64,000 nucleotides of DNA from a virus. Below, piece after piece: positions 255-36,026 of this stretch (positions are counted from its first letter, which is position 1; the number at the start of each line of letters is the position of its first letter). A program made the translations under genes and the position numbers. The notes under the pieces were generated by a model. It was not told the DNA's origin. It was given only the letters and a program-made list of their open reading frames with translations, and made no database searches. Location of the stretch: the IMG/VR virus record IMGVR_UViG_3300025889_000076, positions 62,001 to 126,000 of that record. One strand, 5' to 3'.

Positions 255-465
255 CGGGGTAGTAAGGGTGAGACAATTTGGAGAGTGGTTTGGCGAATTT
301 TGTTTGAACCCCCCCGGCCAACAGATTCCTACTACTCCCGAACAAATTACAAGATAAAACCCCCTGTCCTGTCCCCCTAAGTGTCCTGTCCGAAAATTCA
401 AAAGAATTGAAAATTGATAAACCCTTTGGTAGTAACGACTTAGGTAAAAACCGAAAATTTACCTC

Positions 466-493
466 TTGATAACAAGAATCGCCAGCCTATAAT
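466..493 (+). promoter_or_regulatory. sigma70-type promoter
   Basis: TTGATA at 466-471 and TATAAT at 488-493 are separated by 16 bp, about 45 bases upstream of the 74-aa gene at 540. The 255-539 interval has no convincing gene. It contains short C-rich runs and this promoter. Confidence 0.65.
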
Positions 494-539
494 TAGGTGC
501 AAGACGGAAACGACACCAAAAACAAAGGAAAAAAGTAAG

Positions 540-764
540 ATGATCACAGTTTGCCTCAATGATGGTCATGTAGTGTACGAATTCAACACAGTCACTGAAT
601 TCGTCGATGCGTTCCCTGATGGTCTGGACCAGGACAATCTCGACCAGGGCTGTTATGTCAACTGTTCTATCCGTCAGGCTCAGGAAATAGCTTGGGAGCG
701 AGAAGACCGGAAACGTCGATACAATACCAAGTTGCCATTCGTTGGTCAGCGTTGTCGAGACTAG
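540..764 (+). CDS. small conserved phage protein, paralog of the gene at 1172
   Basis: This 74-aa acidic/basic mixed protein has no domain I recognise. It is nearly identical to the product of the gene at 1172: both contain VCL.DGHVVYEFNT and end RKRRYNTKLPFVGQRCRD. ATG at 540 follows an A/G-rich leader (AAAGGAAAAAAG) downstream of a sigma70-like promoter at 466. The preserved reading frame and mainly synonymous differences between the two copies indicate that both are real and under selection. The duplication suggests dosage or diverging function in early infection, which is inference only. Confidence 0.7.
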   Translation: MITVCLNDGHVVYEFNTVTEFVDAFPDGLDQDNLDQGCYVNCSIRQAQEIAWEREDRKRRYNTKLPFVGQRCRD

Positions 765-766
765 GC

Positions 767-795
767 TTGACGTTGCTTGCCAGGTCTGATACAAT
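767..795 (+). promoter_or_regulatory. sigma70-type promoter
   Basis: TTGACG at 767-772 and TACAAT at 790-795 with a 17-bp spacer, just after the stop of the first 74-aa gene and about 45 bases before the 78-aa gene. Confidence 0.65.
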
Positions 796-839
796 CGGGC
801 CTGGCTGTTTCCCACTGTCTGATCTCAAGGAATGTTTGA

Positions 840-1076
840 ATGCGAAAATCAGTATACCAACTGTCAGCAGGTGATGTTGTTCGCTGCTTCAATGGTACTG
901 GTGATCAGGTTGTCAGTTGTACGGATATCGTACAACATAACAAGAAGAAGCGAATACTTGTTCTAGTGAACAAGAAGACAGGGGTAAGGCGGCGTGTGGT
1001 ATGGGGCTACTATACAAAGGTCTCCATGCAGCCCATCATTCCAAGTACTGCACCTGCGATCAGTATACGAAAGTGA
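840..1076 (+). CDS. small basic hypothetical protein
   Basis: A 78-aa lysine/arginine-rich protein with its own promoter at 767-795. The central part is beta-rich (LSAGDVVRCF, then KKRILVLVNKKTGVRRRVVWG), consistent with a small barrel of SH3 or KOW type that might bind nucleic acid. That reading rests on pattern alone. No catalytic motif is visible. Confidence 0.55.
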   Translation: MRKSVYQLSAGDVVRCFNGTGDQVVSCTDIVQHNKKKRILVLVNKKTGVRRRVVWGYYTKVSMQPIIPSTAPAISIRK

Positions 1077-1090
1077 GCCACTAGTGGCAC

Positions 1091-1140
1091 CGGCGGAAGC
1101 CGAGTCGTCTCACTCACCGCAGGTGTGAGTGAGCGAGACG
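1091..1140 (+). promoter_or_regulatory. repeated intergenic RNA hairpin, copy 1
   Basis: Two adjacent stem-loops lie between genes. A small one, CGGC-GGAA-GCCG, is at 1091-1102 and puts GGA in its loop. A long one at 1106-1140 pairs CGTCTC with GAGACG and ACTCAC with GTGAGT. GCAACGGAA follows. The long hairpin recurs at 1924, 2456 and 3632, with compensatory base changes in copy 2, so RNA structure is conserved. GGA in a loop and ACGGA motifs are the known CsrA-binding pattern, and a csrA gene lies nearby. It could instead be an RNA-processing or termination signal. Confidence 0.6.
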
Positions 1141-1171
1141 CAACGGAATAAAATCAACGGAGAATCGAGCG

Positions 1172-1396
1172 ATGATCAAGGTTTGCCTAAAAGATGGTCA
1201 TGTAGTGTACGAATTCAACACCATCCCCGAATTTGTCGATGCATTCCCTGATGGCCTAGACCAGGAGAATCTGAACCAGGGCTGTTACGTGAACTGCACT
1301 ATCCGTCAGGCTCAAGAGATTGCCTGGGAGCGTGAGGACAGGAAACGTCGATACAATACCAAGCTCCCATTCGTTGGTCAACGTTGCCGGGACTAG
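1172..1396 (+). CDS. small conserved phage protein, paralog of the gene at 540
   Basis: A 74-aa protein nearly identical to the product of 540-764. The ATG at 1172 is preceded by ACGGAG, a Shine-Dalgarno sequence that also matches a CsrA core motif. It follows the first copy of the repeated hairpin. No known domain is recognised. The Cys residues (VCL, GCYVNC, QRC) are conserved between both copies. Confidence 0.7.
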   Translation: MIKVCLKDGHVVYEFNTIPEFVDAFPDGLDQENLNQGCYVNCTIRQAQEIAWEREDRKRRYNTKLPFVGQRCRD

Positions 1397-1452
1397 GGGC
1401 TAGGCTACGGGTTGCAACTTCCGCTTTCTTTTATTCAGGATGGAGTTCTAAA

Positions 1453-1677
1453 ATGAAGCCAATCACTCAGCGACCAATCCCAGAGGGTTACACTACTGAA
1501 TGGGATAACACTATCTGGAATGTGGGTATTGTTTTCCTGTGGTCAGATATTTTCGACGATTATTTGCAATGCGGTCGAATCACTGTGAAGCCCGGAGATA
1601 CTTTGGCCGAAGCGTTCGAACGTGAAATGAATGAACCAATGTGGACAGAATTTGAAGTTTTCTTCGTCAACGAATAG
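1453..1677 (+). CDS. small acidic hypothetical protein
   Basis: A 74-aa Trp/Phe-rich acidic protein beginning MKPITQRPIPEGY. The frame is open further upstream, but ATG 1453 is chosen because a GGATGGAG ribosome-binding sequence lies about 10 bases before it and the upstream extension is low in coding character. It belongs to a run of tiny + strand genes. Function unknown. Confidence 0.6.
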   Translation: MKPITQRPIPEGYTTEWDNTIWNVGIVFLWSDIFDDYLQCGRITVKPGDTLAEAFEREMNEPMWTEFEVFFVNE

Positions 1678-1682
1678 ACAGG

Positions 1683-1883
1683 ATGGAACCAGTGGACCCA
1701 CGTATCACATATATGGCTATTTTCAATGCCATGTCAATCGGTGACTTCACAATGGCGAGAGTTCACGCCACCGACCTGAAAGAATGGTTGGACAAAGGTG
1801 GATTCTATCCCGACACCTATACAAAAGTGGAGGTGGACGCCTATCTCGCGAGCGTATTGAGACGTACAGTAGGGTATGAATGA
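1683..1883 (+). CDS. small hypothetical protein
   Basis: A 66-aa mostly helical protein (MEPVDPRITYMAIFNAM..., VHATDLKEWLD). It starts 5 bases after the preceding stop, so translational coupling is likely. No domain recognised. Confidence 0.5.
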   Translation: MEPVDPRITYMAIFNAMSIGDFTMARVHATDLKEWLDKGGFYPDTYTKVEVDAYLASVLRRTVGYE

Positions 1884-1923
1884 TCAAAAGCGAAGGCGGT
1901 CGTGTTGCCCGTTCTTCGCCGGT

Positions 1924-1958
1924 CGTCCCACTCACAGCAGGTGTGAGTGAGCGGGACG
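1924..1958 (+). promoter_or_regulatory. repeated intergenic RNA hairpin, copy 2 (covarying)
   Basis: This copy has CGTCCC...GGGACG where copies 1, 3 and 4 have CGTCTC...GAGACG. The paired change keeps the stem intact, which is direct evidence of selection on RNA structure. GCAACGGAA follows it, as in the other copies. Confidence 0.65.
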
Positions 1959-1991
1959 CAACGGAAACAAAACACTAAACGGAGAACGGCG

Positions 1992-2204
1992 ATGCTTGAC
2001 ATCAAATTGACATCATACGAAAAGCGAATCATCGGCACACTGACCGATGAAGGGCACACACTTTATGTAACCGGAGACGGTTGGATCTTTGAAGAATCTT
2101 GCGGAGATAAGCACACTTTCCAGTCTTTTCGAAAGTTCTTTGAGTTCTGCGAGTATCGTGAGTCGCAATTGCTGCTCGTGCGAGAAATGCAGGAGACTTT
2201 TTAA
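1992..2204 (+). CDS. small hypothetical protein
   Basis: A 70-aa protein starting MLDIKLTSYEKRIIGTL. The frame extends back to 1947, but ATG 1992 sits 8 bases after ACGGAGAACG (Shine-Dalgarno) and the upstream part overlaps hairpin copy 2. Charged and Phe-rich (HTFQSFRKFFEFCEYRESQ). Function unknown. Confidence 0.55.
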   Translation: MLDIKLTSYEKRIIGTLTDEGHTLYVTGDGWIFEESCGDKHTFQSFRKFFEFCEYRESQLLLVREMQETF

Positions 2205-2233
2205 ATAACGCCCTTTAGACGGAGATTGAAGAG

Positions 2234-2413
2234 ATGAACGGACCAGAAGCAATCGAGTTTTTCGTAGCGAACGCAAATGTCTACAACGAATGGTCAGAAG
2301 CTGCTATGTGGCAGCATGTCAGCCACGTCGTTAGAAAATCCCACAAAGAACCAAATCGGGTCTGGACAGTGGAAGAACTATCCGCTATGATAGCACAAGC
2401 GGAGAACCAGTAA
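2234..2413 (+). CDS. small hypothetical protein
   Basis: A 59-aa ORF, MNGPEAIEFFVANANVYNEW and onward, ending AEELSAMIAQ-like helix then AENQ. ATG is 10 bases downstream of ACGGAG. It lies between the genes at 1992 and 2527 on the same strand with typical spacing. No known domain. Confidence 0.5.
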   Translation: MNGPEAIEFFVANANVYNEWSEAAMWQHVSHVVRKSHKEPNRVWTVEELSAMIAQAENQ

Positions 2414-2455
2414 CCCATATGCGAGGTACGGGTGTGTTACCCGTGCTTCGCGGGT

Positions 2456-2490
2456 CGTCTCACTCACCGCAGGTGTGAGTGAGCGAGACG
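2456..2490 (+). promoter_or_regulatory. repeated intergenic RNA hairpin, copy 3
   Basis: Identical in core to copy 1 (CGTCTCACTCAC ... GTGAGTGAGC-GAGACG) and again followed by GCAACGGAA. The preceding GGGT/ACCC mini-hairpin replaces the CGGC-GGAA-GCCG of copies 1 and 4. Confidence 0.6.
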
Positions 2491-2526
2491 CAACGGAAAA
2501 CAACTCAAAACAAAAGGACGGAAACG

Positions 2527-2655
2527 ATGGACGATTTCGATGATGTGACGTGTGAAGAGTTTTTCGACGACGAAAAGTATTACCGCAGTGTGCCAGATGC
2601 TGAGTTTGAGCAATCGGTTCCCTTCTCGTATCAGGTATCACTTTTCTTCGAATAA
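2527..2655 (+). CDS. very small acidic hypothetical protein
   Basis: A 42-aa ORF, MDDFDDVTCEEFFDDEKYY then ...YQVSLFFE. It is strongly acidic in its first half, and ATG follows GGACGGAAACG. Short acidic phage proteins can act as DNA mimics, but nothing specific supports that here. Confidence 0.45.
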   Translation: MDDFDDVTCEEFFDDEKYYRSVPDAEFEQSVPFSYQVSLFFE

Positions 2656-2659
2656 CCGC

Positions 2660-2687
2660 TTGACATTCTCTGTCAATGGGCTACAAT
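2660..2687 (+). promoter_or_regulatory. sigma70-type promoter
   Basis: Consensus TTGACA at 2660-2665 and TACAAT at 2682-2687 with a 16-bp spacer. Drives the 98-aa gene at 2729. Confidence 0.75.
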
Positions 2688-2728
2688 CCACTTCTCAAAC
2701 GGAAACTGTCTTTTAGAAGGAAAACACT

Positions 2729-3025
2729 ATGTCGCACACAATCTTCGAAAACGCTTTTGGTAAGATTTCCCATGAAGTTCGAAGGGATTATGTTATCTCT
2801 GATGAAGAACTGTTCGGGATGGTCAGCCGGGACTTCTACAAATCCTTGAACAATCCAGAAGTGACGGGAACGAAATCAATGCTCAAAAGTCTGGCAAAAG
2901 AACAAGGCCAGGTTGTGGAAGAAACACCAGAAGAAATTGCGATTCGCGAAGCAATGGAACGTGAGCAGAGGATTCTTGCCCATATCAGACGGGTTCAAAT
3001 CGAATTGCAATGCTGTGAAGATTGA
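2729..3025 (+). CDS. hypothetical protein, helical and charged
   Basis: A 98-aa protein (MSHTIFENAFGKISHEVRRDY...). The C-terminal half, EETPEEIAIREAMEREQRI, is predicted helical/coiled coil. A perfect promoter lies 40 bases upstream and AGAAGGAAAAC serves as ribosome-binding site. The 3' end is a short tandem GAAGATT repeat that extends past the stop codon. No domain recognised. Confidence 0.6.
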   Translation: MSHTIFENAFGKISHEVRRDYVISDEELFGMVSRDFYKSLNNPEVTGTKSMLKSLAKEQGQVVEETPEEIAIREAMEREQRILAHIRRVQIELQCCED

Positions 3026-3078
3026 AGATTGAAGATTGAAGAGGACGGAAACAATCCCCAGAAAAGAAGGAAAGAACG

Positions 3079-3243
3079 ATGAAAGACGCTGAACGCCTGA
3101 TGATCATCCGTGCCCTGGCATTAAATTGTCGGGACAACGCAAAGAATGGGGCAGATGAGGACAATCGTCCACTTCTGGACCTGATCCATGAGTTAGCGTT
3201 TCAGATGGATGTTGAGTACACAAATTTTTCGCTGGGGGAGTAA
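3079..3243 (+). CDS. small hypothetical protein
   Basis: A 54-aa helical ORF, MKDAERLMIIRALALNCRDN and onward. AGAAGGAAAGAACG precedes the ATG. Its stop overlaps the next start (TAATG), which implies translational coupling to the small membrane peptide at 3243. Confidence 0.5.
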   Translation: MKDAERLMIIRALALNCRDNAKNGADEDNRPLLDLIHELAFQMDVEYTNFSLGE

Positions 3244-3341
3244 TGCTAATAAACGCAATCCAAGACGCGACCCCCTACGTAATTGGAACAGGTCTGTTCC
3301 TGTTCATAATGACACTTCTAGAAAAGAATGGAAGACTTTAG
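3243..3341 (+). CDS. possible small membrane peptide
   Basis: A 32-aa ORF whose ATG overlaps the preceding stop (TAATG) and whose stop is 1 base before the csrA ATG. Residues 11-27 (TPYVIGTGLFLFIMTLL) form one hydrophobic segment, so it would be a single-pass membrane peptide. Evidence is position and hydrophobicity only. Confidence 0.35.
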   Translation: MLINAIQDATPYVIGTGLFLFIMTLLEKNGRL

Positions 3342-3342
3342 G

Positions 3343-3522
3343 ATGCTAGTACTGTCAAGAAAAAAAGACGAAAAGATCACAATTCAGATTCCCGGAAAAC
3401 CGGATATCGAAATCATGATCATCGAAACGGGCATCAAGACGCGGGTGGGGATTAAAGCTCCACAAGAATACCAGATCGTCAGAAACGAACTGATTGGAAC
3501 GTCAAGAGGGCTTCCAAAATAG
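3343..3522 (+). CDS. csrA: carbon storage regulator CsrA-like RNA-binding protein
   Basis: A 59-aa protein beginning MLVLSRKKDEKITIQ, the hallmark start of CsrA/RsmA. The later G-I-K-A-P segment is also typical, although the usual RHEIY motif is replaced by QEYQIVRNEL. CsrA dimers bind GGA-containing mRNA leaders and block or activate translation and decay. ATG 3343 is preferred over the in-frame 3328 start because it gives the canonical N-terminus. Many leaders in this region carry ACGGA at or next to the ribosome-binding site, plus repeated hairpins, so self-regulation of early phage genes or interference with host Csr is plausible inference. Confidence 0.88.
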   Translation: MLVLSRKKDEKITIQIPGKPDIEIMIIETGIKTRVGIKAPQEYQIVRNELIGTSRGLPK

Positions 3523-3616
3523 GTTTCTTGATATCGGTTCTTTGATATGGGGCGGGTGGGGAAATTGTCCCTGCCTGCCTTTATCTTTTACCAGAAAAAT
3601 AGCCTGTCTGTTTTAC

Positions 3617-3666
3617 CGGCGGAAGCCGAGTCGTCTCACTCACCGCAGGTGTGAGTGAGCGAGACG
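3617..3666 (+). promoter_or_regulatory. repeated intergenic RNA hairpin, copy 4
   Basis: CGGC-GGAA-GCCG at 3617-3628, then the long hairpin at 3632-3666, followed by GCAGCGGAA. It repeats the arrangement of copy 1, about 95 bases after csrA and just before the promoter of the GHKL-like gene. Confidence 0.6.
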
Positions 3667-3715
3667 CAGCGGAAAACAAGACACAAAGGAAAACCAAAAA
3701 GTCAGAATTTTCAGC

Positions 3716-3743
3716 TTGCAAGCCACAATGATTGTGTTACAAT
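3716..3743 (+). promoter_or_regulatory. sigma70-type promoter
   Basis: TTGCAA at 3716-3721 and TACAAT at 3738-3743 with a 16-bp spacer. It lies inside the longest open frame of the next gene, which shows that the true start must be further downstream. Confidence 0.7.
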
Positions 3744-3793
3744 GCTCTCTCAATGGAACGGCGACCAACTTTTTCTTTCATGGGGATGAACGA

Positions 3794-5056
3794 ATGACTA
3801 AATGGATCAAGATGCACAATGATGGTGAATTCGACGTTATTACCGCAATTGGTATGCTGGGGGCGTCGGTGAAGATGGGTGAAGATCCCATTGGTCTCTA
3901 TGGTTCTGGTATCAAGTACGCTATGGCTCAGGCTTTGCGTATGGGTATCTCGCTGAAGATTTCCGACAAGGGAAATCTGTACACTCTCACGTCCTTCGAA
4001 ACTGAGTTTCGGGGGCGACAATTTCAAAGTGTCGGTCTCAAGACAAAGACCGGAAAGATCCATAAAACTGGAATCACTACTGATTTCGGTAAAGAAGACT
4101 GGACAGATATTTGGTTCATCTTCCGCGAATTTTATTCGAACTGCCTTGATGAAGGCGGATTTCTGGAAATCGTGGACGGTATACAAACCAGCGAGTCAGG
4201 CGTTGACGTTTTTATCCCGTATACTCCATTCAAGGAAATCGTTGATAACCTGAGTGATTACTTTTGTCCTAAAGATTTTAAGCTAAAAGTCGGCACGGGA
4301 CGAGTATTCAAAAAGGGAGTATGGGTTGGGAATATGTCGGTCGATACAGGCTTGGACTTCCAGTCTGATTACATCGAAATTACTGAAACCCGAACGCTCA
4401 ACCAATATTGTGCTTGGAGGCGTTTAGAAGGCATTATCGAAAGCTACGCAGAAAAAGAACATTTGGTCGAACTGCTCAAGCATGAAGAATGTTGGACAGA
4501 AATGCCGAACCTATGGTTGTGCGGCGAGAAATGCGAGGAGCATTTGCACGCAGCCCTAGTCGAAGTATATGGCAAAGATTATATGATCTGTCCAAATGTG
4601 GATTGGATTATCAAAGATGCCATAGAAGTCTACGGAAGGAATCCGGTAGTATTTCCATCGGAATGGAAATTGCCAACATCAAAAATTCAAACGATGCAAG
4701 ATCTGGCGAATAGTATCATCTTCCGCGATGCGACAGAAGCAGAGCAAAAAGTCATTGATAAAGGAATGAAGGCTTTAGCATGGATGGACGATGTTCCTAA
4801 TCCTTTTGATTCCCTTTATAGTGTCAGGATAAAAGACATCAAAGTCAGAATCCTGAAGACAGACGAGAATTGTGGCGGATTGGCTAAACAAGGTTCCACC
4901 GAAATTGCCATCAATTCATCAGTGGTGAGCGGAGATTTTAAGAAGTTTTTGCAAACCCTGATGCACGAGTGCGTTCACGCCATCACTGGCGAACAAGACT
5001 ATACCAGAGGATTCGCTAGCTTCATGGAAAGAGCTTTAGTGTCCTTCTCTGTTTGA
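3794..5056 (+). CDS. GHKL-ATPase-like protein with C-terminal HExxH motif
   Basis: A 420-aa protein. Residues 31-43 (DPIGLYGSGIKYA) resemble the GxxGxGL box of Hsp90/gyrase/histidine-kinase ATPases. Residues about 112-121 (REFYSNCLDE) resemble their N box (ExxxNxxD). The order is inverted relative to classical GHKL proteins. Near the C-terminus HECVH (about 391-395) is a zincin-type HExxH motif with a downstream Glu. I recall an uncharacterised bacterial/phage family with the same two N-terminal motifs. ATG 3794 is chosen because the promoter ends at 3743 and GGGGATGA precedes this start. An ATP-dependent metalloprotease or chaperone-like role is inference. Confidence 0.6.
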   Translation: MTKWIKMHNDGEFDVITAIGMLGASVKMGEDPIGLYGSGIKYAMAQALRMGISLKISDKGNLYTLTSFETEFRGRQFQSVGLKTKTGKIHKTGITTDFGKEDWTDIWFIFREFYSNCLDEGGFLEIVDGIQTSESGVDVFIPYTPFKEIVDNLSDYFCPKDFKLKVGTGRVFKKGVWVGNMSVDTGLDFQSDYIEITETRTLNQYCAWRRLEGIIESYAEKEHLVELLKHEECWTEMPNLWLCGEKCEEHLHAALVEVYGKDYMICPNVDWIIKDAIEVYGRNPVVFPSEWKLPTSKIQTMQDLANSIIFRDATEAEQKVIDKGMKALAWMDDVPNPFDSLYSVRIKDIKVRILKTDENCGGLAKQGSTEIAINSSVVSGDFKKFLQTLMHECVHAITGEQDYTRGFASFMERALVSFSV

Positions 5057-5274: not shown

Positions 5275-5289
5275 GATAAAGGGCTTGAA

Positions 5290-5311
5290 GAGGCCGCTAC
5301 GGAGCGGCCTC
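5290..5311 (+). terminator. strong hairpin, probable terminator
   Basis: Perfect 9-bp stem GAGGCCGCT/AGCGGCCTC with ACGG loop. The core GGCCGCTACGGAGC reappears at 8435, and related GC-rich hairpins occur at 8444 and 10559, so this is a recurring element of the early region. Confidence 0.5.
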
Positions 5312-5382
5312 TGAGGGCCGCTCTGATGTAGACTAACCTGTACGGATGATCGAACAATCTTTGATAATTAAGCTCAATTAAG

Positions 5383-6384: not shown

Positions 6385-6411
6385 GGGGATGGCGGAAACC
6401 CGCCATTCCCC
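6385..6411. terminator. hairpin terminator, copy 1 of a repeat flanking the HNH gene
   Basis: GGGGATGGCGG-AAAC-CCGCCATTCCCC hairpin between the DUF932 gene and the oppositely oriented HNH gene, abutting the HNH stop codon. An almost identical hairpin is at 7103-7130 on the other side of the HNH gene. Confidence 0.55.
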
Positions 6412-7031
6412 TATCCCAAAGTCTGAAGTATGTATTGGGCAAAACTTCTTAATTCATCGGGGCTAGCGTCAGATTTCATTCGATTGGCTTTATGGCTCAG
6501 AATTTGGACATTGCCAATAATATAACCTTTTGTGTTGTCTATTCTGTCAATTGTTGCAGATTCTGATACAATTCGACTAGTACCACCATAAGACAGTTCA
6601 ATTCCCAATATCGGGCAGAACGGAACGTAGATGGAATCTAGATGCTCGCGAGTCAGATTAAACTCCCATCCTTTTTCTTTTGCTCGCTTTTTTGCGTTTT
6701 TCAACCTACCCGCCCATTTGTCATCTTTTTTTCTTTGGGCAATTTGAGCCTTGTTCTTCTCATAATATTCTCTTTGATACTTGTCATAAGCTTCTTTTGA
6801 GGCATAGCCGTTACGCTGCCAAGCTTCTAACATGGAACGTCTCTTCTTTTGATAAGTTACACGGTTTTCTTTAGCCCTTTCTTTAGTGTCCAGCAGTTCA
6901 CAATCATAACAGATAGTCTTTTGATAGTCGTAAAATTCTCCGGTTTTGACCTTGTTAACAATCCTTGGTCGTTGTATAATCCTGAAATCTGAGAGGGGTT
7001 TATCGACTTGACATTTTCTACACTTTTTCAT
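6411..7031 (-). CDS. free-standing HNH homing endonuclease
   Basis: A 206-aa basic protein on the opposite strand to its neighbours. The N-terminus has CRKC and CYDC pairs (residues 4-7 and about 41-44), a zinc-finger-like module. A Lys/Arg-rich linker follows. The C-terminal third has the phage HNH pattern: CPILGIELSY, SATIDRIDNTKGY, GNVQILSHKANRMKSD. Such enzymes nick or cut DNA and spread into related phages. The gene is flanked by two copies of the same hairpin (6385-6411, 7103-7130) and its reversed orientation marks it as an insertion. Confident as to family; target unknown. Confidence 0.82.
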   Translation of the reverse strand: MKKCRKCQVDKPLSDFRIIQRPRIVNKVKTGEFYDYQKTICYDCELLDTKERAKENRVTYQKKRRSMLEAWQRNGYASKEAYDKYQREYYEKNKAQIAQRKKDDKWAGRLKNAKKRAKEKGWEFNLTREHLDSIYVPFCPILGIELSYGGTSRIVSESATIDRIDNTKGYIIGNVQILSHKANRMKSDASPDELRSFAQYILQTLG

Positions 7032-7102: not shown

Positions 7103-7130
7103 GGGGATGGCGGATTTACGCCATTCCCCT
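7103..7130. terminator. hairpin, copy 2 of the repeat flanking the HNH gene
   Basis: GGGGATGGCGG-ATTTA-CGCCATTCCCC, differing from the 6385 copy only in the loop and nearby bases. It directly precedes the tRNA-like element at 7133. Confidence 0.5.
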
Positions 7131-7132
7131 AT

Positions 7133-7208
7133 GCGAGAGTATATCCTCCATCTTATAAATGGTAGAAAGATTAATTGGTTCATGTGCGTTCGATTCGCAC
7201 CTCTCGCA
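7133..7208 (+). tRNA. tRNA-like element with UAU-type loop and no normal D arm
   Basis: GCGAGAG (7133-7139) pairs perfectly with CTCTCGC (7201-7207). A textbook T arm GTGCG-TTCGATT-CGCAC lies at 7184-7200. Total length is 76, exactly tRNA-like. Inside, CCAT-CTTATAA-ATGG forms an anticodon-like arm with TAT at 7154-7156 (Ile, AUA), but too close to the acceptor to leave room for a D arm. An unstructured AT-rich stretch follows it. It may be a D-arm-less or degenerate tRNA, or a tRNA mimic. The acceptor and T arm are clear; the identity is uncertain. Confidence 0.45.
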
Positions 7209-8181: not shown

Positions 8182-8273
8182 GCCAGTTGGTATGAGAAAG
8201 CTCCTCATACTGTAAAGTGGTAAACGGTGAAGCACGGTCCACTATAATAAAACGGGGTTTCACCATACAATAT

Positions 8274-8416
8274 GGAGTAGGGGCCACTATTGATAACTGT
8301 GGCAGTCAGACCGCAATATCTGACCGGGTTTGCTTTCTTCTTTTCTAGGGAGATTTAAGCACAGAAGAGTAATTAACTTCTGAATACCCATGCGGGTTCA
8401 ATTCCCGCCTACTCCT
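8274..8416 (+). ncRNA. tRNA-like RNA with displaced acceptor strand
   Basis: GGAGTAG (8274-8280) is perfectly complementary to CTACTCC (8409-8415), which follows a standard T arm GCGGG-TTCAATT-CCCGC (8392-8408). The interior is about 110 nt, far longer than a tRNA. It folds as GCCAC/GTGGC, GTCAGA/TCTGAC, a GGGT/ACCC closing stem and CAGAAG/CTTCTG. It may be a tRNA carrying an insertion, a tRNA-mimic RNA or a decayed tRNA. The 8182-8273 stretch before it has only further inverted repeats and no gene. Confidence 0.35.
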
Positions 8417-8443
8417 GCCTTATTCTTTTACTAGGCCGCTACG

Positions 8444-8465
8444 GAGCAGCCGCTGGCGGCTGCTC
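8444..8465 (+). terminator. strong GC-rich hairpin, probable terminator
   Basis: Perfect 10-bp stem GAGCAGCCGC/GCGGCTGCTC with TG loop. The identical hairpin recurs at 10559-10580. The 8182-8638 interval has no supported gene. Confidence 0.5.
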
Positions 8466-8529
8466 TGATGCGTGTATTCCAGTGAACGTATGTCTTTCTG
8501 TTCTTTTTCGGTTTTCTCAAGGTTGGTGC

Positions 8530-9744: not shown

Positions 9745-9876
9745 AACTAAACGGCCACAGGGGATTTGGTGTATTTGGTAACACGCCGCTATTTAAGCGA
9801 GGCACATCGGTTCGATTCCGATTTTAGTTTGGAACGCCTGAAATTGAGAAGTGAGGTTCGAATCCTTACAATCCCA
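9745..9876 (+). ncRNA. two interleaved tRNA-like elements
   Basis: Element A: AACTAAA (9745-9751) pairs with TTTAGTT (9823-9829) after T arm ATCGG-TTCGATT-CCGAT (9806-9822). Element B: GGGATT (9761-9766) pairs with AATCCC (9870-9875) after T arm TGAGG-TTCGAAT-CCTTA (9852-9868). Between them lies a good D arm GTGT-ATTTGGTA-ACAC (9769-9784), then a poorly paired anticodon-like arm around ATTTAAG. The 5' ends of both precede the shared body and both 3' ends follow it. This may be a recombined or decayed tRNA pair. It is not a normal tRNA gene. Confidence 0.35.
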
Positions 9877-10539: not shown

Positions 10540-10558
10540 GTATTCATAGGGTGCAACA

Positions 10559-10580
10559 GAGCAGCCGCTGGCGGCTGCTC
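10559..10580 (+). terminator. GC-rich hairpin identical to 8444-8465
   Basis: GAGCAGCCGC-TG-GCGGCTGCTC, an exact copy of the hairpin at 8444. It directly follows a T-tailed terminator, so it may serve RNA stability or processing rather than termination. Confidence 0.45.
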
Positions 10581-10641
10581 GTTTGTGTATCTGCCTATAC
10601 GGGTGAATTCGGCTATTTTTCACTTTTTAGACTTAAGACTA

Positions 10642-17144: not shown

Positions 17145-17280
17145 ATTAGACTTATTTATTAGTGGTCTAGAATATTCCTTTTGGATTCAATGTTTAATGT
17201 TTAATGATGAATTCATCGTGTTTGTCCCCAGATATATTACTGATTTAGAAAGTGTAGTTAGTAGGTGTTATAATGAGTAA
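17131..17280 (+). CDS. 49-aa leader gene of the first S-Q-L array
   Basis: ORF MSRIELDLFISGLEYSFWIQ and onward, ending CYNE-stop. Its terminal ATGAGTAA overlaps the first array ORF by 8 bases, the same geometry as between array members (GTGAATAG). The gene at 21102 (ending CNE-stop, also overlapping by 8) appears to play the same part in the second array. No domain recognised. Confidence 0.5.
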   Translation: MSRIELDLFISGLEYSFWIQCLMFNDEFIVFVPRYITDLESVVSRCYNE

Positions 17281-17536
17281 TTTTGTATTCTCTAGTATGC
17301 TACACTCGCAGTTAAACTCGCAGTTACACTGGCATTTATACTCAGAGTTAGACTCGCAGTTACACTCGCAGTTAAGCTCACAGTCACACTGGCAGTTATA
17401 CTCGCAGTCACACTGGCAGTTATACTCGCAGTTAAGCTCGCAGTTACGCTCGCGGTTACACTCGAAGTTAATCTCGCAGTTAGGCTCGCAGTTATACTGG
17501 CAGTTAGACTCGCGGTTGGAGAGAGATAGTGAATAG
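17273..17536 (+). CDS. S-Q-L repeat protein 1 of array 1
   Basis: An 87-aa protein: a short unique start (MSNFVFSSML), then about 18 tetrapeptides (HSQL, NSQL, HWHL ...), ending RLERDSE. ATG overlaps the leader gene by 8 bases. The codons for LERDSE contain GGAGAGA and then GTG, which serve as ribosome-binding site and start of ORF 2. Leu at every fourth residue suggests a regular fibre, helix or solenoid. I recall similar four-residue repeats (SQVx, DQVx) in bacterial DUF6745 proteins. Function unknown. Confidence 0.6.
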   Translation: MSNFVFSSMLHSQLNSQLHWHLYSELDSQLHSQLSSQSHWQLYSQSHWQLYSQLSSQLRSRLHSKLISQLGSQLYWQLDSRLERDSE

Positions 17537-17792
17537 ATCGCAGTTACACTTGCAGTTAAACTTGCAGTTACGCTCACAGTCAAACTATCAGTTACGCTCG
17601 CAGTTAAACTCGCAGTTACACTTGCAGTTAAACTTGCAGTTACGCTCACAGTCAAACTATCAGTTACGCTCGCAGTTAAACTCGCAGTTATACTCGCAGT
17701 TAAACTCGCAGTTATACTCGCAGCTAAACTCGCAGTTATACTGGCAGTTATACTCGCAGTTACGCTCACAGTTGGAGAAAGATAGTGAATAG
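17529..17792 (+). CDS. S-Q-L repeat protein 2 of array 1
   Basis: An 87-aa protein starting GTG AAT AGA (MNRSQL) and ending QLEKDSE. It overlaps its neighbours by 8 bases at each end. Its N-terminal 33 codons are duplicated in ORF 4. It consists wholly of tetrapeptide repeats. Confidence 0.6.
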   Translation: MNRSQLHLQLNLQLRSQSNYQLRSQLNSQLHLQLNLQLRSQSNYQLRSQLNSQLYSQLNSQLYSQLNSQLYWQLYSQLRSQLEKDSE

Positions 17793-17964
17793 ATCCCAGT
17801 TACACTCGCAGTTAATCTCGAAGTTAGGCTCGCAGTTATCCGGGGTGTTATACTCGCAGTTATACTCGCAGTTACGCTCGCGGTTACACTCGAAGTTAAT
17901 CTCGCAGTTAGGCTCGCAGTTATACTGGCAGTTAGACTCGCGGTTGGAGAGAGATAGTGAATAG
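17785..17964 (+). CDS. S-Q-L repeat protein 3 of array 1
   Basis: A 59-aa ORF (MNRSQLHSQLISKLGSQL and onward, ending LERDSE), GTG start, with 8-base overlaps at both ends. It contains a non-repeat SGVL interruption (TCCGGGGTGTTA) shared with ORF 6. Its 3' part is an exact duplicate of ORF 1's 3' part. Confidence 0.55.
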   Translation: MNRSQLHSQLISKLGSQLSGVLYSQLYSQLRSRLHSKLISQLGSQLYWQLDSRLERDSE

Positions 17965-18175
17965 ATCGCAGTTACACTTGCAGTTAAACTTGCAGTTACG
18001 CTCACAGTCAAACTATCAGTTACGCTCGCAGTTAAACTCGCAGTTACACTTGCAGTTACACTTGGAGTTACACTGGCAGTTAGACTCGCAGTTATACTCG
18101 CAGTTATACTTGCAGTCAAACTTACAGTTACGCTTGCAGTTAGACTCGCAGTTACGCTCACAGTTGGAGAGATAG
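17957..18175 (+). CDS. S-Q-L repeat protein 4 of array 1
   Basis: A 72-aa ORF with GTG start. It ends LER-stop, one variant of the terminal motif: a 2-base shorter GA run brings TAG into frame, giving a TAGTG overlap of one base with ORF 5 while the GGAGAGATA-GTG signal is kept. Confidence 0.55.
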   Translation: MNRSQLHLQLNLQLRSQSNYQLRSQLNSQLHLQLHLELHWQLDSQLYSQLYLQSNLQLRLQLDSQLRSQLER

Positions 18176-18390
18176 TGAATAACTTACAGTTAGACTCACA
18201 GTTACGCTCGCAGTTAAACTCGCAGTTACACTTGCAGTTACACTTGGAGTTACACTGGCAGTTAGACTCGCAGTTATACTCGCAGTTATACTTGCAGTCA
18301 AACTTACAGTTACGCTTGCAGTTAGACTATCAGTTACACTCCCAGTTAGAGAAAGATAGTGAATCCCAGTTGGAGAGAGATAGTGAATAG
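18175..18390 (+). CDS. S-Q-L repeat protein 5 of array 1
   Basis: A 71-aa ORF beginning MNNLQLDSQL. It reads through one terminal motif whose stop is lost (LEKDSES) and ends at the next one (QLERDSE), as if an intervening cassette had been deleted. Confidence 0.55.
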   Translation: MNNLQLDSQLRSQLNSQLHLQLHLELHWQLDSQLYSQLYLQSNLQLRLQLDYQLHSQLEKDSESQLERDSE

Positions 18391-18550
18391 CTCGCAGTTA
18401 TCCGGGGTGTTATACTCGCAGTTATACTCGCAGTTACACTCGGACTTACGATCACAGTTACAATTTCGGTTAGACTCGCAGTTATACTGGCAGTCATACT
18501 CACAGTTAGAATCGCAGTTATACTCACAGTTGGAGAGAGATAGTGAATAG
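18383..18550 (+). CDS. S-Q-L repeat protein 6 of array 1
   Basis: A 55-aa ORF beginning GTG 18383 (MNSSQLSGVL). A longer in-frame start exists at 18359, but 18383 has the GGAGAGAGATA-GTG signal shared by the other members. It ends LERDSE with an 8-base overlap to ORF 7. Confidence 0.5.
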   Translation: MNSSQLSGVLYSQLYSQLHSDLRSQLQFRLDSQLYWQSYSQLESQLYSQLERDSE

Positions 18551-18749
18551 ATCGCAGTTAATCTCGCAGTTACTCTCGCAGTTATACTGGCAGTTATGCT
18601 CGCAGTTAGGCTCGCAGTTATACTGGCAGTTAGACTCGCAGTTACGCTCGCAGTTACGCTCACAGTTAGGCTCGCAGTTATACTGGCAGTTAGTCTTGCA
18701 GTCAAGCTCGCAGTTAGACTCGCAGTTACGCTCACAGTTGGAGAGATAG
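18543..18749 (+). CDS. S-Q-L repeat protein 7 of array 1
   Basis: A 68-aa ORF, MNRSQLISQL and onward, ending QLER-stop with the one-base TAGTG overlap, as in ORF 4. Confidence 0.55.
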   Translation: MNRSQLISQLLSQLYWQLCSQLGSQLYWQLDSQLRSQLRSQLGSQLYWQLVLQSSSQLDSQLRSQLER

Positions 18750-18994
18750 TGAATAACTTACAGTTAGACTCGCAGTTATACTCGCATTTAAGCTCGCAGT
18801 TACACTCGCAGTTACACTCGCAGTTAAACTCACAGTTACGCTCGCAGTTAGACTCTCAGTTATACTTTCAGTTATACTCGCAGTTATACTCACATTTAGA
18901 CTCTCCGTTATACTGGCAGTCATTATCGCAGTTATACTGGCAGTTGGAGAGAGATAGTGAAGTGTATTACTGGCAATATCCCGATCAGCCGTAA
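18749..18994 (+). CDS. S-Q-L repeat protein 8 (last of array 1)
   Basis: An 81-aa ORF with GTG start (MNNLQLDSQL). It reaches the motif LERDSE but has no stop there and adds a unique tail, VYYWQYPDQP. This closes the chain, and a new promoter follows at 19011. Confidence 0.55.
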   Translation: MNNLQLDSQLYSHLSSQLHSQLHSQLNSQLRSQLDSQLYFQLYSQLYSHLDSPLYWQSLSQLYWQLERDSEVYYWQYPDQP

Positions 18995-21492: not shown

Positions 21493-21652
21493 ATCGCAGT
21501 TACACTTGCAGTTATACTCGCAGTTAAACGATCATTTTTACTCGCAGTTACGCTCGCAGTTAAACTCGCAGTTATACTTACAGTTACACTCGCAGTTACA
21601 CTCGCAGTTATACTGGCGGTTACACTCCCAGTTGGAGAGAGATAGTGAATAG
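21485..21652 (+). CDS. S-Q-L repeat protein 2 of array 2
   Basis: A 55-aa ORF with GTG start (MNRSQLHLQL). It contains one break in the repeat (NDHF) and ends QLERDSE with an 8-base overlap to the next ORF. Same signals as in array 1, 2.5 kb away. Confidence 0.55.
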   Translation: MNRSQLHLQLYSQLNDHFYSQLRSQLNSQLYLQLHSQLHSQLYWRLHSQLERDSE

Positions 21653-21812
21653 CTCGCAGTTACACTTGCAATTATTCTCGCAGTTAAGCTCGCGGTTATA
21701 CTGGCAGTTGAACTCTCAGTGCTTATTCCCTTTATACAAGGAGTTATTATCACAATTATCCACTCAGACTCAAACATACTCAGATTTGAATGAATGGAAT
21801 GATAAATATTAA
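21645..21812 (+). CDS. S-Q-L repeat protein 3 (last of array 2)
   Basis: A 55-aa ORF with GTG start. The repeats fade after about 28 residues into a unique tail (FPLYKELLSQLSTQTQTYS...). Like the last ORF of array 1, it lacks the LERDSE terminal motif. Confidence 0.5.
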   Translation: MNSSQLHLQLFSQLSSRLYWQLNSQCLFPLYKELLSQLSTQTQTYSDLNEWNDKY

Positions 21813-21844
21813 TAAAAGGGTGTATAATTATCAGGAGGTGTATT

Positions 21845-22102
21845 ATGCACGAAATGCCAAAAGTAACCAACTCGACACTAGACTCTACTCTAGCAACATT
21901 ACGGCATGAAGAAGAATATAGTAGAAAAACTATACATGATTTAAAAGAGAATAATCCTGTCCTCTATTCTTTACTAGAAATAATTGTTAGCTCTGATAAA
22001 GACCCCGAATATATCAAAGGATTTTTATTAGGAGCTACTCAATTTTATACATTAATATCACGTCAAATTGTTTCCGATGAATTTGAAAGGACTTGGGGAT
22101 GA
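21845..22102 (+). CDS. small helical hypothetical protein
   Basis: An 85-aa helical protein (LRHEEEYSRKTIHDLKENNP...) with a perfect ribosome-binding site (CAGGAGGTG). It overlaps the next gene by ATGA. GGTGTATAAT lies upstream at 21818-21827, a sequence shared with 51472. Function unknown. Confidence 0.6.
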   Translation: MHEMPKVTNSTLDSTLATLRHEEEYSRKTIHDLKENNPVLYSLLEIIVSSDKDPEYIKGFLLGATQFYTLISRQIVSDEFERTWG

Positions 22103-23396: not shown

Positions 23397-23602
23397 TGTG
23401 GCCGTCATTACTGAATATTCTGGGCAAATTACCTCCTGCATCAGGTAACTCGTTTACGTCATTATCGGCTATGGGGACTCCTGGTCGATTTCAGTCATTC
23501 TCTCCAAAAGGACAGACAGCAGAATTTCTTTCAATTAATTATTTTCTTAATTTAAGATTTGAATTAGACCCTATCTTTATCAAGCTCTTTAAGAAGCGAT
23601 GA
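23396..23602 (+). CDS. small hypothetical protein
   Basis: A 68-aa ORF with ATG overlapping the preceding stop (TAATG). Its 3' end runs 39 bases into the convergent nucleotidyltransferase gene. No family recognised, and it could be a 3' remnant. Confidence 0.35.
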   Translation: MWPSLLNILGKLPPASGNSFTSLSAMGTPGRFQSFSPKGQTAEFLSINYFLNLRFELDPIFIKLFKKR

Positions 23603-24040
23603 ACTATACTTCTTTTCCATAGGTAAAAAGACCATTTTTATCCCCAGCTTATTGCAAACTTCTTCTTCTTGTTTGTTATAAGTCTGGGGATTTCTATCGC
23701 CACTATTAAAAAATAGGAATCTGTCTTTATTTAAAAAAGAAAATATTCCCCCAGTCCTTTCTTCTTTTATCCGCTTTACCAAAGAATATAATGTCTTAGA
23801 TACACTAGAATCTTGATCAAAAGATATAAAAGCTTCATCAACAACTTTTAAAGCCTGTACAATCCGGTGTCTATGTTCTTCGTCCATAAATACTTTTGAA
23901 CCTTTAATATCTACCTGATGATCATTATTTACAATGACAATCAAATAATCACATTGAGACTTAGCTCCTTCTAAATAGTCAAGATGACCAGCATGAAGAG
24001 GGTTTGCGTACAAACTAGCTATACCATATCTATATTTCAT
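23564..24040 (-). CDS. cytidylyltransferase-family nucleotidyltransferase (heptose-1-P or related)
   Basis: A 158-aa protein of the HxGH nucleotidyltransferase family. The motif NPLHAGHLDYLEGAK lies near the N-terminus, with CDYLIVIVNND and a terminal SSSLL in place of the usual ISSS/TSS motif. It most resembles the nucleotidyltransferase domain of HldE/RfaE and glycerol-3-phosphate cytidylyltransferases, which join NTP to a sugar phosphate. It is the last gene of the minus-strand glycan block that also has kinase, phosphatase and isomerase of heptose type. Start at 24040 since this ATG overlaps the preceding stop. Confidence 0.7.
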   Translation of the reverse strand: MKYRYGIASLYANPLHAGHLDYLEGAKSQCDYLIVIVNNDHQVDIKGSKVFMDEEHRHRIVQALKVVDEAFISFDQDSSVSKTLYSLVKRIKEERTGGIFSFLNKDRFLFFNSGDRNPQTYNKQEEEVCNKLGIKMVFLPMEKKYSSSLLKELDKDRV

Positions 24041-24198
24041 ATTATCCAATTCAAAATTATATTAAGTGTAATGAATAGATTAGTTATAATAGCTTGCAAT
24101 ACAAGAAAAGTTCGTATAAAAGCTATATTATCACTTTCCTTTGTAGAAATCCCAGATTTTTCCCCTATGGCTTTACACCATAATCTCCATAGACTCAT
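24037..24198 (-). CDS. small membrane protein
   Basis: A 53-aa ORF (MSLWRLWCKAIGEKSG...) with a hydrophobic C half (TFLVLQAIITNLFITLNIIL). Its stop overlaps the nucleotidyltransferase start (ATGA). Positional support is good, function unknown. The 24199-24320 interval holds only a copy of the CTGGTAAAAGA motif. Confidence 0.4.
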   Translation of the reverse strand: MSLWRLWCKAIGEKSGISTKESDNIAFIRTFLVLQAIITNLFITLNIILNWII

Positions 24199-24320
24199 TG
24201 CATCCCCTGAATTATAGGTAAAGGATCACAATCATACAACCCAGAACAAGTAAAAGAATTCAATAGCTGGTAAAAGAACAAGGCCAATTTAGCAAGTAGT
24301 CGCTAAACGGCCCATAATAT

Positions 24321-24671
24321 TCACTGCATTTTGTGAATACCGGAATCTCTTTCAATAGAATACGCTATGGCAGTAATTGTCCCATCAGGTTTTGTGTCGT
24401 TCACAAGGACTCTCGGACCCGATGTCAGCCCCATGACAAGCTGATCGTAAAAGATTCCGACACTGTGTAACTGCCTCTCTGTGAGTGATCTCAGCCCCTC
24501 TGGGCGAGCGGTGGTGATGACGATGTAGTGTCCATCAGCCCGCCACTTTAACAAAGTCTCCTGTGTACCTTGTATTGGTCTTGGTTCCCCCATCATCATG
24601 CCATACAGATCATTTCCGTGATGAAGAAGTGTACCGTCAATATCTAAGAAGTATGTATTATTTGAACTCAT
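24321..24671 (-). CDS. HAD-superfamily phosphatase
   Basis: A 116-aa protein with motif I FLDIDGTLL (residues 8-16), motif II VITTARP, and an acidic motif near LVNDTKPDG. It is a short cap-less HAD enzyme. In this context (kinase, isomerase, nucleotidyltransferase for heptose) it could dephosphorylate heptose-1,7-bisphosphate as GmhB does, but a nucleotidase or other sugar-phosphate phosphatase is also possible. Confidence 0.7.
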   Translation of the reverse strand: MSSNNTYFLDIDGTLLHHGNDLYGMMMGEPRPIQGTQETLLKWRADGHYIVITTARPEGLRSLTERQLHSVGIFYDQLVMGLTSGPRVLVNDTKPDGTITAIAYSIERDSGIHKMQ

Positions 24672-24822
24672 TATATTCTATACTTTCTATAATGAAGAGT
24701 GCTTGTTCTATTAAGAAAATTTTATCTTCAAAAGGAGACGGGTCTTCTACTATATCAAAATAGTCTTCAATAAAAGTAAGAAGAAGTTTCTCTATTTTAT
24801 TTCTTTTAATAGCATTATACAT
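24658..24822 (-). CDS. small hypothetical protein (54 aa)
   Basis: ORF MYNAIKRNKIEKLLLTFIED and onward, ending IESIEYNEFK. It overlaps the HAD gene by 14 bases and the kinase stop by 8 (start ATGTATAA region). Similar-sized acidic ORFs fill the g gaps at 34054 and 40269. Function unknown. Confidence 0.45.
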   Translation of the reverse strand: MYNAIKRNKIEKLLLTFIEDYFDIVEDPSPFEDKIFLIEQALFIIESIEYNEFK

Positions 24823-25786
24823 ATTGATTAATTATTCTAGATCCATATGGATCGACGCTAAAGTCAATAAAGTTTTTCCTGTATTTTTGTTTAAAATCGT
24901 TCTTATTTTTAGAACTATCAATTAATCCAAATATAAACCCGCTACCACCGCTACCAATTAACTTGCCCCCAATCATCCCCTCATCTTGCAGACGGTTATA
25001 CATCTGGTCAATTTCATAATTACTTACAATGTTTGATATCTTTTTCTTTTCCAGCCAAGAGTTATGTAATAAACGAGCAATACAATCAATGTCAGAGTTT
25101 AAAAAATAATCATATGCTTTGTGTGCAAACTCTTTAATGCGATGCTTGGATTCAATATTATCAGAATTTTTGTGAGACTCAGCAATATTAAATGATTTTC
25201 TTGACCTGCCCGTATAAATAAGAATTGCCCTATTAAAGAATTCCCTCTGAAACTCTTCACTAATGGGCATTGGTTTAACTTTAAAATCATTATCTGCAAT
25301 ATGTATAGAGTTAAATCCTCCGTAACTAGCCCATATTTGGTCTTGTATCCCCCCAGCCTCACCTAATAGGTCTCGCTCTATATAAATAGCCTCTTTAGCA
25401 AGCCTCTTATTACTTATAGAATCTCCAGAAAGTCTATAAAATGAATTTAGTAGACCAACTATAAAAGATGAAGAAGACCCAATGCCTGTTTGCGAGGGAA
25501 GATCTGATAGGTGAACAATCTCTACTCCTTCACGCACATTAAGGAAGTCTAAGACCCCACGAACACCATTATGTTTTATTTCTTCGTTATTATCAACTAT
25601 CTCTGTCTTAGCATAACAAATCTTAGTTTTATAATCAAGAATTCCTGGAGTCATTCTAACATTAGTATAACAATACTTGTCTATAGTAAAACCTATAAGC
25701 AATGACCCATATCGATTGTAGTAATTTTCATAATCAGTAGAACCACCAAACATAGAGATTCTAAACGGTGTTTGAGATATAATCAT
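24815..25786 (-). CDS. hddA: GHMP-family sugar kinase, heptose-7-phosphate kinase type
   Basis: A 323-aa protein. The N-terminus TPFRISMFGGSTDYENYY and the GHMP ATP motif PSQTGIGSSSSFIVGLL (about residues 97-113) match HddA-type D-glycero-alpha-D-manno-heptose-7-phosphate kinase. C-terminal GGKLIGSGGSGF is the family's third motif. It would make heptose-1,7-bisphosphate from heptose-7-phosphate. GmhA-, phosphatase- and nucleotidyltransferase-like genes lie in the same strand block, which supports this substrate over galactose or fucose. Confidence 0.75.
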   Translation of the reverse strand: MIISQTPFRISMFGGSTDYENYYNRYGSLLIGFTIDKYCYTNVRMTPGILDYKTKICYAKTEIVDNNEEIKHNGVRGVLDFLNVREGVEIVHLSDLPSQTGIGSSSSFIVGLLNSFYRLSGDSISNKRLAKEAIYIERDLLGEAGGIQDQIWASYGGFNSIHIADNDFKVKPMPISEEFQREFFNRAILIYTGRSRKSFNIAESHKNSDNIESKHRIKEFAHKAYDYFLNSDIDCIARLLHNSWLEKKKISNIVSNYEIDQMYNRLQDEGMIGGKLIGSGGSGFIFGLIDSSKNKNDFKQKYRKNFIDFSVDPYGSRIINQYV

Positions 25787-26297
25787 CTAGTTGTTTTCTA
25801 AAAACCGATTTTCCTCGACCAATATTAGCTTTCCAATCACTTGAGGATTCTTTATTCACATAATCTGTAACAAATTTATAACATACAAATTTAATGTTAT
25901 ACTTCTTACACACAGAAGCAATAGCGAATGCTTCCATGTCTACTAAATCAGGTTCTAGATGACCATCACCCTTCACTCGTTTAAAAGAATACTCATCTAA
26001 GAACCTATCTCCTGTCGAACAGATACATCCTGTTTCGTCTGTTGTAATTATGTTCGGACTAAATTCACCGACAAGATCTCTGTCTTGAAATATCCCGCAC
26101 TTATACAAACCAGACATGGATGGTTTTAAAGCACCGCAAGTTCCGAAATTGATAATAACTTCTGGATCATAATTATCTATAACTTCCATTGCTGCTATTG
26201 CAGCATTTACTTTGCCAACACCGCTATAGTATATCCTATTTTTATATTTTGGATAATCAAATTCTTCTTCTAAGGCGGTTACTATCCTGAATTCCAT
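25761..26297 (-). CDS. nucleosidase/phosphorylase-family protein (MTAN/PNP fold)
   Basis: A 178-aa protein: VTALEEEFDYPK, YYSGVGKVNAAIAAMEV, INFGTCGAL, and near the C-terminus LVDMEAFAIASV. This is the ME-A signature of purine nucleoside phosphorylases and MTA/SAH nucleosidases. It is shorter than usual (about 230 residues). In a SAM-using operon (radical SAM, methyltransferase) it could remove 5'-deoxyadenosine, MTA or SAH. Start 26297, in the stop region of the upstream gene. Confidence 0.7.
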   Translation of the reverse strand: MEFRIVTALEEEFDYPKYKNRIYYSGVGKVNAAIAAMEVIDNYDPEVIINFGTCGALKPSMSGLYKCGIFQDRDLVGEFSPNIITTDETGCICSTGDRFLDEYSFKRVKGDGHLEPDLVDMEAFAIASVCKKYNIKFVCYKFVTDYVNKESSSDWKANIGRGKSVFRKQLDDYISNTV

Positions 26298-26298
26298 T

Positions 26299-27240: not shown

Positions 27241-27277
27241 AAATTATCTGTCAATCTATTTTCTAAAAGTAAATAAT

Positions 27278-28423: not shown

Positions 28424-28597
28424 ATAATCGTTCCATAGTTACAAAAAATTACACATTGACATAAAAGCTGTACTGTCGAAGATTGAAAAATAGATAGGTT
28501 CTAGATTTACGTTATCGTATTTAGTCCATGATTTACGTTCAGGATGGCTAGGACTCCCCAGCTTAAGTGATGATATCCCAACTCCTGTACAAGTGTG

Positions 28598-28786
28598 TTA
28601 TGATTGATCATCATTATATTTCCTAATCACCAATCCATATAAACTACTTAATTTGCTATCACCCAACATTTTCGCCGCATCTTTAGAGAATATGAGAGGT
28701 GTTCCAATATAGAAAGATTCCATTCCTACATCGCCATCTGCATATTGCAACCACCCACGATAACCAACAAAATTTAGCTTTGACAT
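28598..28786 (-). CDS. small hypothetical protein
   Basis: A 62-aa protein (MSKLNFVGYRGWLQYADGDV...), overlapping the radical SAM gene by 13 bases. Function unknown. The 28424-28597 gap after it has no clear gene. Confidence 0.5.
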   Translation of the reverse strand: MSKLNFVGYRGWLQYADGDVGMESFYIGTPLIFSKDAAKMLGDSKLSSLYGLVIRKYNDDQS

Positions 28787-30974: not shown

Positions 30975-30987
30975 ACCAATCCCTAAA

Positions 30988-32559: not shown

Positions 32560-32577
32560 ATAATATCCTAATAAACT

Positions 32578-36011: not shown

Positions 36012-36026
36012 TATGTGCCTTTAAAA

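Follow-up and report, generated by a model that had tools for sequence, protein, structure and literature searches.

A four-copy hairpin and paired ANGGA motifs in the leaders of a csrA-containing cluster of small phage genes

Phage T7 carries RNase III sites, which are related irregular hairpins located between early genes and upstream of ribosome-binding sites, and the put antitermination signal of phage HK022 consists of two adjacent stem-loops. T4-like phages carry promoter/stem-loop cassettes (promoter early stem-loops, PeSLs), for the role of which we follow the summary in PMC4503421. Targets of the RNA-binding protein CsrA have two ANGGA sites 10-63 nucleotides (nt) apart, with an optimum of 18 (PMC3856055), and one of the sites is usually over the Shine-Dalgarno (SD) sequence (PMC3856055, PMC6028588). 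CsrA encoded by phages has been discussed as a tool for manipulating the host, e.g. by silencing of CRISPR-Cas (PMC8450108). Here, we describe a 35-nt stem-loop found four times in a cluster of small genes, one of which is csrA, and the paired ANGGA motifs in the leaders of this cluster. The cluster is in a stretch of 64,000 nt (the window, to which all positions refer) that corresponds to bases 62001-126000 of the 142,148-base record of an uncultured virus (IMG/VR record IMGVR_UViG_3300025889_000076). An earlier account made from the sequence alone (the sequence-only reading) had proposed that the hairpin is selected as a structure and that CsrA, from the phage or its host, controls these leaders.

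The cluster (480-3800, plus strand) includes about 12 small genes, almost all of them orphans. The same stem-loop was found on the plus strand at 1106-1140, 1924-1958, 2456-2490 and 3632-3666 (copies 1 to 4, respectively), each time behind a gene, exactly as the sequence-only reading had it, and is followed by the tail CAACGGAA in copies 1-3 and CAGCGGAA in copy 4. Copies 1, 2 and 3 lie 31, 33 and 36 nt upstream of the start codons of genes 1172 (1172-1396, a 74-amino-acid orphan), 1992 (1992-2204, 70 amino acids) and 2527 (2527-2655, 42 amino acids), all on the plus strand, and copy 1 is intercistronic. Copy 4 is behind the terminator-like hairpin of csrA and is followed by a promoter-like site (TTGCAA-16-TACAAT, 3716-3743, plus strand). 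In every copy, ACGGAA or GCGGAA starts 2 nt 3' of the stem. When up to three mismatches were allowed, the 24-nt unit made up of the 3' arm and tail occurred four times, and was not recovered in any of 100 dinucleotide shuffles. A covariance model run over the whole 142-kb record recovered these four copies and no fifth.

The structure rests mostly on folding. In the favoured register, CGUCUC-A-CUCAC/GUGAG-C-GAGACG, the helix is irregular and has 11 base pairs (bp), and the apical loop is CGCAGGU or AGGU, neither of which contains GGA. Folding z-scores were -4.3, -1.3, -4.7 and -3.1 for copies 1 to 4, respectively, and the fold of copy 3 varies with the choice of flanks. In copy 2, a U-A pair within this register is replaced by C-G. 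The covariation claimed previously is real to this extent, but it involves only one base pair, and given three random substitutions the chance of such a compensatory double change is approximately 0.016. This single event suggests some selection on the helix.

Each copy has a further, small hairpin upstream, but this is not conserved between copies. The mini-hairpin CGGC-GGAA-GCCG noted previously, with GGA in its loop, was confirmed by sequence and fold before copy 1 (1091-1102, plus strand) and copy 4 (3617-3628, plus strand), where it is included in the 54 identical bases that these two copies have in common. The hairpins upstream of copies 2 and 3 (GCGARG...CUUCGC) are longer and unrelated to it; that of copy 2 (GCGAAG...CUUCGC, supported by sequence and fold) is at 1890-1919 and that of copy 3 (GCGAGGUACGGGU...ACCCGUGCUUCGC, 13 pairs) is at 2421-2451, both on the plus strand. 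We note that in copy 2 (1911-1992) the 3' part of the upstream hairpin has an alternative partner: the arm CGUUCUUCG can instead pair with CGGAGAACG, which covers the ribosome-binding site of gene 1992. The GGA of this site has a predicted unpaired probability of 0.0, and a switch specific to this copy is possible.

The second component of the cluster is a set of paired ANGGA motifs, all on the plus strand. Behind copies 1-3, they are found in the leaders of gene 1172 (ACGGA at 1143 and 1157; 1143-1161), gene 1992 (ACGGA at 1961 and 1979; 1961-1983) and gene 2527, which has three (ACGGA at 2493, AAGGA at 2514 and ACGGA at 2518; 2493-2522). Two GGA motifs also follow copy 4 (GCGGA at 3669 and AAGGA at 3686; 3669-3690). 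The same layout occurs in three leaders that lack the hairpin, namely those of gene 540 (ACGGA at 504, AAGGA at 525; 504-529), gene 2729 (ACGGA at 2699, AAGGA at 2717; 2699-2721) and gene 3079 (ACGGA at 3045, AAGGA at 3067; 3045-3071). Spacings in the cluster leaders are 14-25 nt, within the published range. The downstream ANGGA overlaps the ribosome-binding site and ends 4-10 nt before the ATG, and the leader GGAs are not placed in hairpin loops.

These motifs are concentrated in the cluster. The abundance of ACGGA in its ribosome-binding regions, already pointed out in the sequence-only reading, was borne out by 10 occurrences in the 939 non-coding bases versus 1.5 expected, a number reached by none of 3000 Markov samples. 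ACGGA is present in 7 of 12 cluster leaders versus 2 of the 109 other leaders of the genome (p=4e-7). The 142-kb record has five plus-strand occurrences of the octamer ACGGAAAC (504, 1961, 2518, 2699 and 3045), every one of them in a cluster leader. When only leaders with ANGGA in the ribosome-binding site were considered, a second ANGGA was present 10-30 nt upstream in 6 of 10 cluster leaders versus 2 of the 37 genomic leaders outside the cluster (p=5e-4; p=0.006 if leaders carried on the repeat are counted once).

On the evidence of its sequence, the csrA found in the cluster is a genuine CsrA gene (3343-3522, plus strand). Its 59-amino-acid product matches Pfam CsrA with an E value of 3.9e-13 and 49.6 bits (the curated cut-off is 27), and the invariant Arg47 aligns with Arg44 of Escherichia coli CsrA, an arginine that contacts RNA (PMC3856055). 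The proposal that the repeats fit CsrA recognition is partly supported. A csrA gene is in the cluster, paired ANGGA motifs are concentrated in its leaders, and neither csrA nor the hairpin was found in 30 related records (many of them fragments), but the conserved hairpin loop lacks GGA. The CsrA interpretation would therefore apply to the leader instead of the hairpin.

The position of the motifs relative to predicted transcript starts suggests how the two components may be related. If transcripts are taken to start approximately 7 nt from the -10 box, the octamer ACGGAAAC is within a few nt of the predicted start for gene 540 (promoter-like site TTGATA-16-TATAAT, 466-493, plus strand) and gene 2729 (TTGACA-16-TACAAT, 2660-2687, plus strand), and in the operon-internal leaders of genes 1172, 1992 and 2527 a related motif begins 2 nt behind the stem. 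Because the motif adjoins the stem as it adjoins the predicted starts in the promoter-driven leaders, we propose that the hairpin may substitute for a 5' end. The four hairpins would represent a single type of intercistronic leader cassette, repeated within a cluster of small, presumably early, genes. The unit comprises the small upstream hairpin, the 11-bp irregular stem-loop and (A/G)CGGAA 2 nt behind the stem, and continues in copies 1-3 with an A-rich linker and another ANGGA overlapping the ribosome-binding site. The promoter-driven genes of the cluster have the same octamer near the predicted transcript start and the second ANGGA at the SD, and are without the hairpin. The likely role of the hairpin would be to provide genes inside an operon with a 5' boundary that is clean, insulated or processed. 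The leader proper would then be a two-site CsrA target, in which a CsrA dimer bridges the upstream motif and the one overlapping the SD and controls translation of the cluster. The parts that we infer are binding by CsrA (whether of phage or host), the sign of the control, and insulation or processing as the role of the hairpin. Taken as a whole, this is the explanation we favour, though tentatively and at somewhat less than even confidence.

For comparison, 79 other phage csrA loci from IMG/VR (loci L006-L084) were analysed. The starts of the other genes came from a crude caller and, for this reason, only leaders with ANGGA in the ribosome-binding site were counted, for csrA as well as for the other genes. 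Dual ANGGA sites were present in 20 of 52 non-redundant csrA leaders versus 23 of 311 other leaders at the same loci (p=4e-8), which suggests, on sequence grounds, that self-regulation of phage csrA via dual ANGGA leaders may be widespread. Dual ANGGA before csrA across other csrA-bearing phage contigs is a general prediction that is independent of the present phage. The idea that dual sites are common to genes around csrA in all phages was weakly supported (8.1 % near csrA versus 4.3 % far from it, p=0.03, with csrA itself included in the near set) and was rejected. The broader proposal, that the CsrA of the phage runs a self-contained regulon over its own small-gene cluster, with a duplicated hairpin cassette that imitates a transcript 5' end and so provides operon-internal genes with the two-site CsrA leader of promoter-driven ones, and that self-regulation by way of dual ANGGA leaders is frequent among phage csrA genes, is possible but should be considered more doubtful than the cassette and two-site leaders described above.

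Several observations weigh against control of the cluster by CsrA. Duplication of leaders could have spread the motif with CsrA playing no part, ANGGA overlaps ordinary SD sequences, and a composition-matched Markov control gave a weaker result (p=0.009). The GGA of a CsrA target should be single-stranded, preferably within a hairpin loop, and the predicted accessibility is mixed here: the unpaired probability of the GGAs is 0.6-0.8 in the leaders of genes 540 and 1172, but 0.0-0.4 in those of 1992, 3079 and part of 2527. The csrA leader of the present phage was not scored as dual, no gene follows copy 4 directly, and genes neighbouring csrA in other csrA phages show, as above, a weak enrichment at most.

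Among the other explanations, the one that survives best is that the hairpins serve in the processing or stabilisation of RNA, e.g. as RNase III sites like those between the early genes of T7, and cut a polycistronic transcript, with ACGGAA no more than a part of the duplicated unit and CsrA not involved. In keeping with this, the stem-loops recur between small genes of the same orientation, always precede a ribosome-binding site and are not terminator-like, and the register kept by the compensatory pair is an irregular helix. However, a helix of 11 bp with some additional apical pairs is short, and the combination of ACGGAAAC and ANGGA in the hairpin-less leaders of genes 540, 2729 and 3079 is left unexplained. 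We consider processing without CsrA unlikely, though a serious competitor.

The second possibility is that the stem-loops are module boundaries for shuffling and regulation, of the same kind as the PeSLs of T4-like phages. They would have been spread by duplication and promote recombination of small-gene modules, and any function in RNA would be secondary. Duplication is evident in the identity between copies 1 and 4 and in gene 540 (540-764, plus strand, a 74-amino-acid orphan), which is a 91 % identical paralogue of gene 1172. Two relatives of the phage, G001 and G004, likewise carry repeated stem-loops, different from these, at module junctions, where they lie behind a gene and before the next promoter, and a second hairpin family of similar kind is found in the present phage (at 5290, 8436 and 10559). 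However, copies 1-3 lack both the promoter that defines a PeSL and a terminator tail, and the compensatory change suggests that the helix is under some selection. A module boundary is an improbable explanation. The second family itself consists of GGCCGC-UACGGA-GCGGCC followed by a third complementary arm (5289-5330, 8433-8471 and 10556-10581), a layout that permits two mutually exclusive hairpins. Each copy is approximately 50-80 nt before a promoter-like site, and similar units occur in G001 and G004.

It is very unlikely that the hairpins themselves are CsrA binding sites presenting GGA in a short loop. This would fit CGGC-GGAA-GCCG before copies 1 and 4, but the GGAA tetraloop is without ANGGA context, it is found in only two of four copies, and the main loop has no GGA. 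A CsrB/RsmZ-type sequestering RNA, which would have many hairpins with GGA in the loop, was rejected on the same features. Still less credible is that the 9-bp inverted repeat CTCACTCAC-N7-GTGAGTGAG serves in the DNA as the operator of a phage repressor: this palindrome is near-perfect in copies 1, 3 and 4, but no promoter overlaps copies 1-3 and, as both changes in copy 2 would break the palindrome while the offset RNA helix is kept, the RNA helix is favoured. The least probable is an antitermination signal like put, because the tandem stem-loops, though separated by 1-4 nt and located in what is presumably an early operon, include an upstream hairpin that varies between copies, and copy 4 is behind, not before, a terminator-like hairpin.

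Two further readings were discarded. The alternative that the hairpins are termination signals did not hold, as their tails are A-rich with no U tract and none of the copies was listed by a terminator scan, which did list the hairpin behind csrA (3549-3581, plus strand) and another at 5071. Translation from a GTG inside the hairpin, giving the peptide MSETQRK, would be in frame with the next gene only in copies 2 and 3, and the change in the stem is non-synonymous.

Searches for the element elsewhere were negative. At Rfam thresholds, only a tRNA in the window passed, and a low threshold applied to 400-3900 gave matches at chance level only. Exact-pattern scans of IMG/VR and 84,980 genomes did not find the hairpin elsewhere; one IMG/VR match (L005) is a chance 17-mer within a coding region. 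Relatives of the phage were identified in IMG/VR using two structural-module proteins, and 30 records, many of them fragments, were examined. The covariance-model search in related phages that had been suggested with the sequence-only reading confirmed the four copies in the phage's own record, but found no homologous element in these 30 records or in the 79 csrA-phage loci. A weak gapped match in L055 (21.8 bits, E value 0.0005) lacks most of the stem-loop and was judged not to be homologous. csrA was likewise not found in the 30 records, many being fragments. BLAST searches of phages and plasmids gave no relevant match. Gene 1992 has a homologue in G004 (E value 1.3e-4), where the leader is of the plain promoter type, contains one AAGGA and lacks the hairpin. 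For the present phage, near-identical short contigs are known (L170 and L171). In both G001 and G004, small genes with promoter leaders resemble the 2527 gene, a resemblance that was judged by eye and not reported by BLAST. The four-copy element is new in sequence, and its parts are of known kinds in combination.

The remainder of the window includes genes for a virion structural protein, DNA ligase, PhoH and a B12-type ribonucleotide reductase, and further phage genes. Judged from the translations only, a long series of nucleotide-sugar, glycosyltransferase-like and sugar-modifying genes is at 23564-40291 on the minus strand. Short-period repeats were seen at 17245-18994 and 21538-21870; the open frames that they give are of the SVTASLTASVTAS type on one strand and of the LAVRLAVTLAV type on the opposite strand. 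A tRNA-like sequence without a D-arm (7132-7208; acceptor TGCGAGAG/CTCTCGCA, T-arm GTGCGTTCGATTCGCAC) is found only by the mitochondrial mode of ARAGORN. A tRNA-like T-arm, GCGGGTTCAATTCCCGC, between GGAGTAG and CTACTCC (8270-8418) and two further tRNA-like T-arms near 9800 (9766-9875) were accepted by no tRNA finder. Another hairpin, GGGGATGGCGGA...GCCATTCCCC, is present in two copies (6385-6411 and 7103-7129) that flank a minus-strand gene (6411-7031).

Compared with described systems, the four hairpins resemble the RNase III sites of T7 in being several related irregular hairpins between (here presumed) early genes and upstream of ribosome-binding sites, but the helix here is shorter. With PeSL cassettes they share repeated stem-loops between small, presumed early genes. 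However, a promoter behind the stem-loop and a terminator tail are absent from copies 1-3, and only copy 4 has a promoter-like site (3716); the PeSL-like arrangement of stem-loop and promoter is that of the relatives and of the second hairpin family. The leaders resemble two-site CsrA/RsmA leaders in the 14-25 nt spacing of paired ANGGA, in the position of the downstream site at the ribosome-binding site and in the presence of csrA in the same cluster. They differ in that several have a repeated stem-loop in front, the GGAs are outside hairpin loops and the candidate targets are all phage genes. As with other phage-encoded CsrA/RsmA (PMC8450108, PMC7366521), a family that is widespread in phages, the csrA gene is borne by the phage. 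The targets proposed in the literature are those of the host, e.g. CRISPR-Cas, whereas the candidates here are leaders of the phage itself. An alternative that can be tested is suggested by this locus: phages may use CsrA on their own transcripts, and the candidate targets and sites adjoin the gene.

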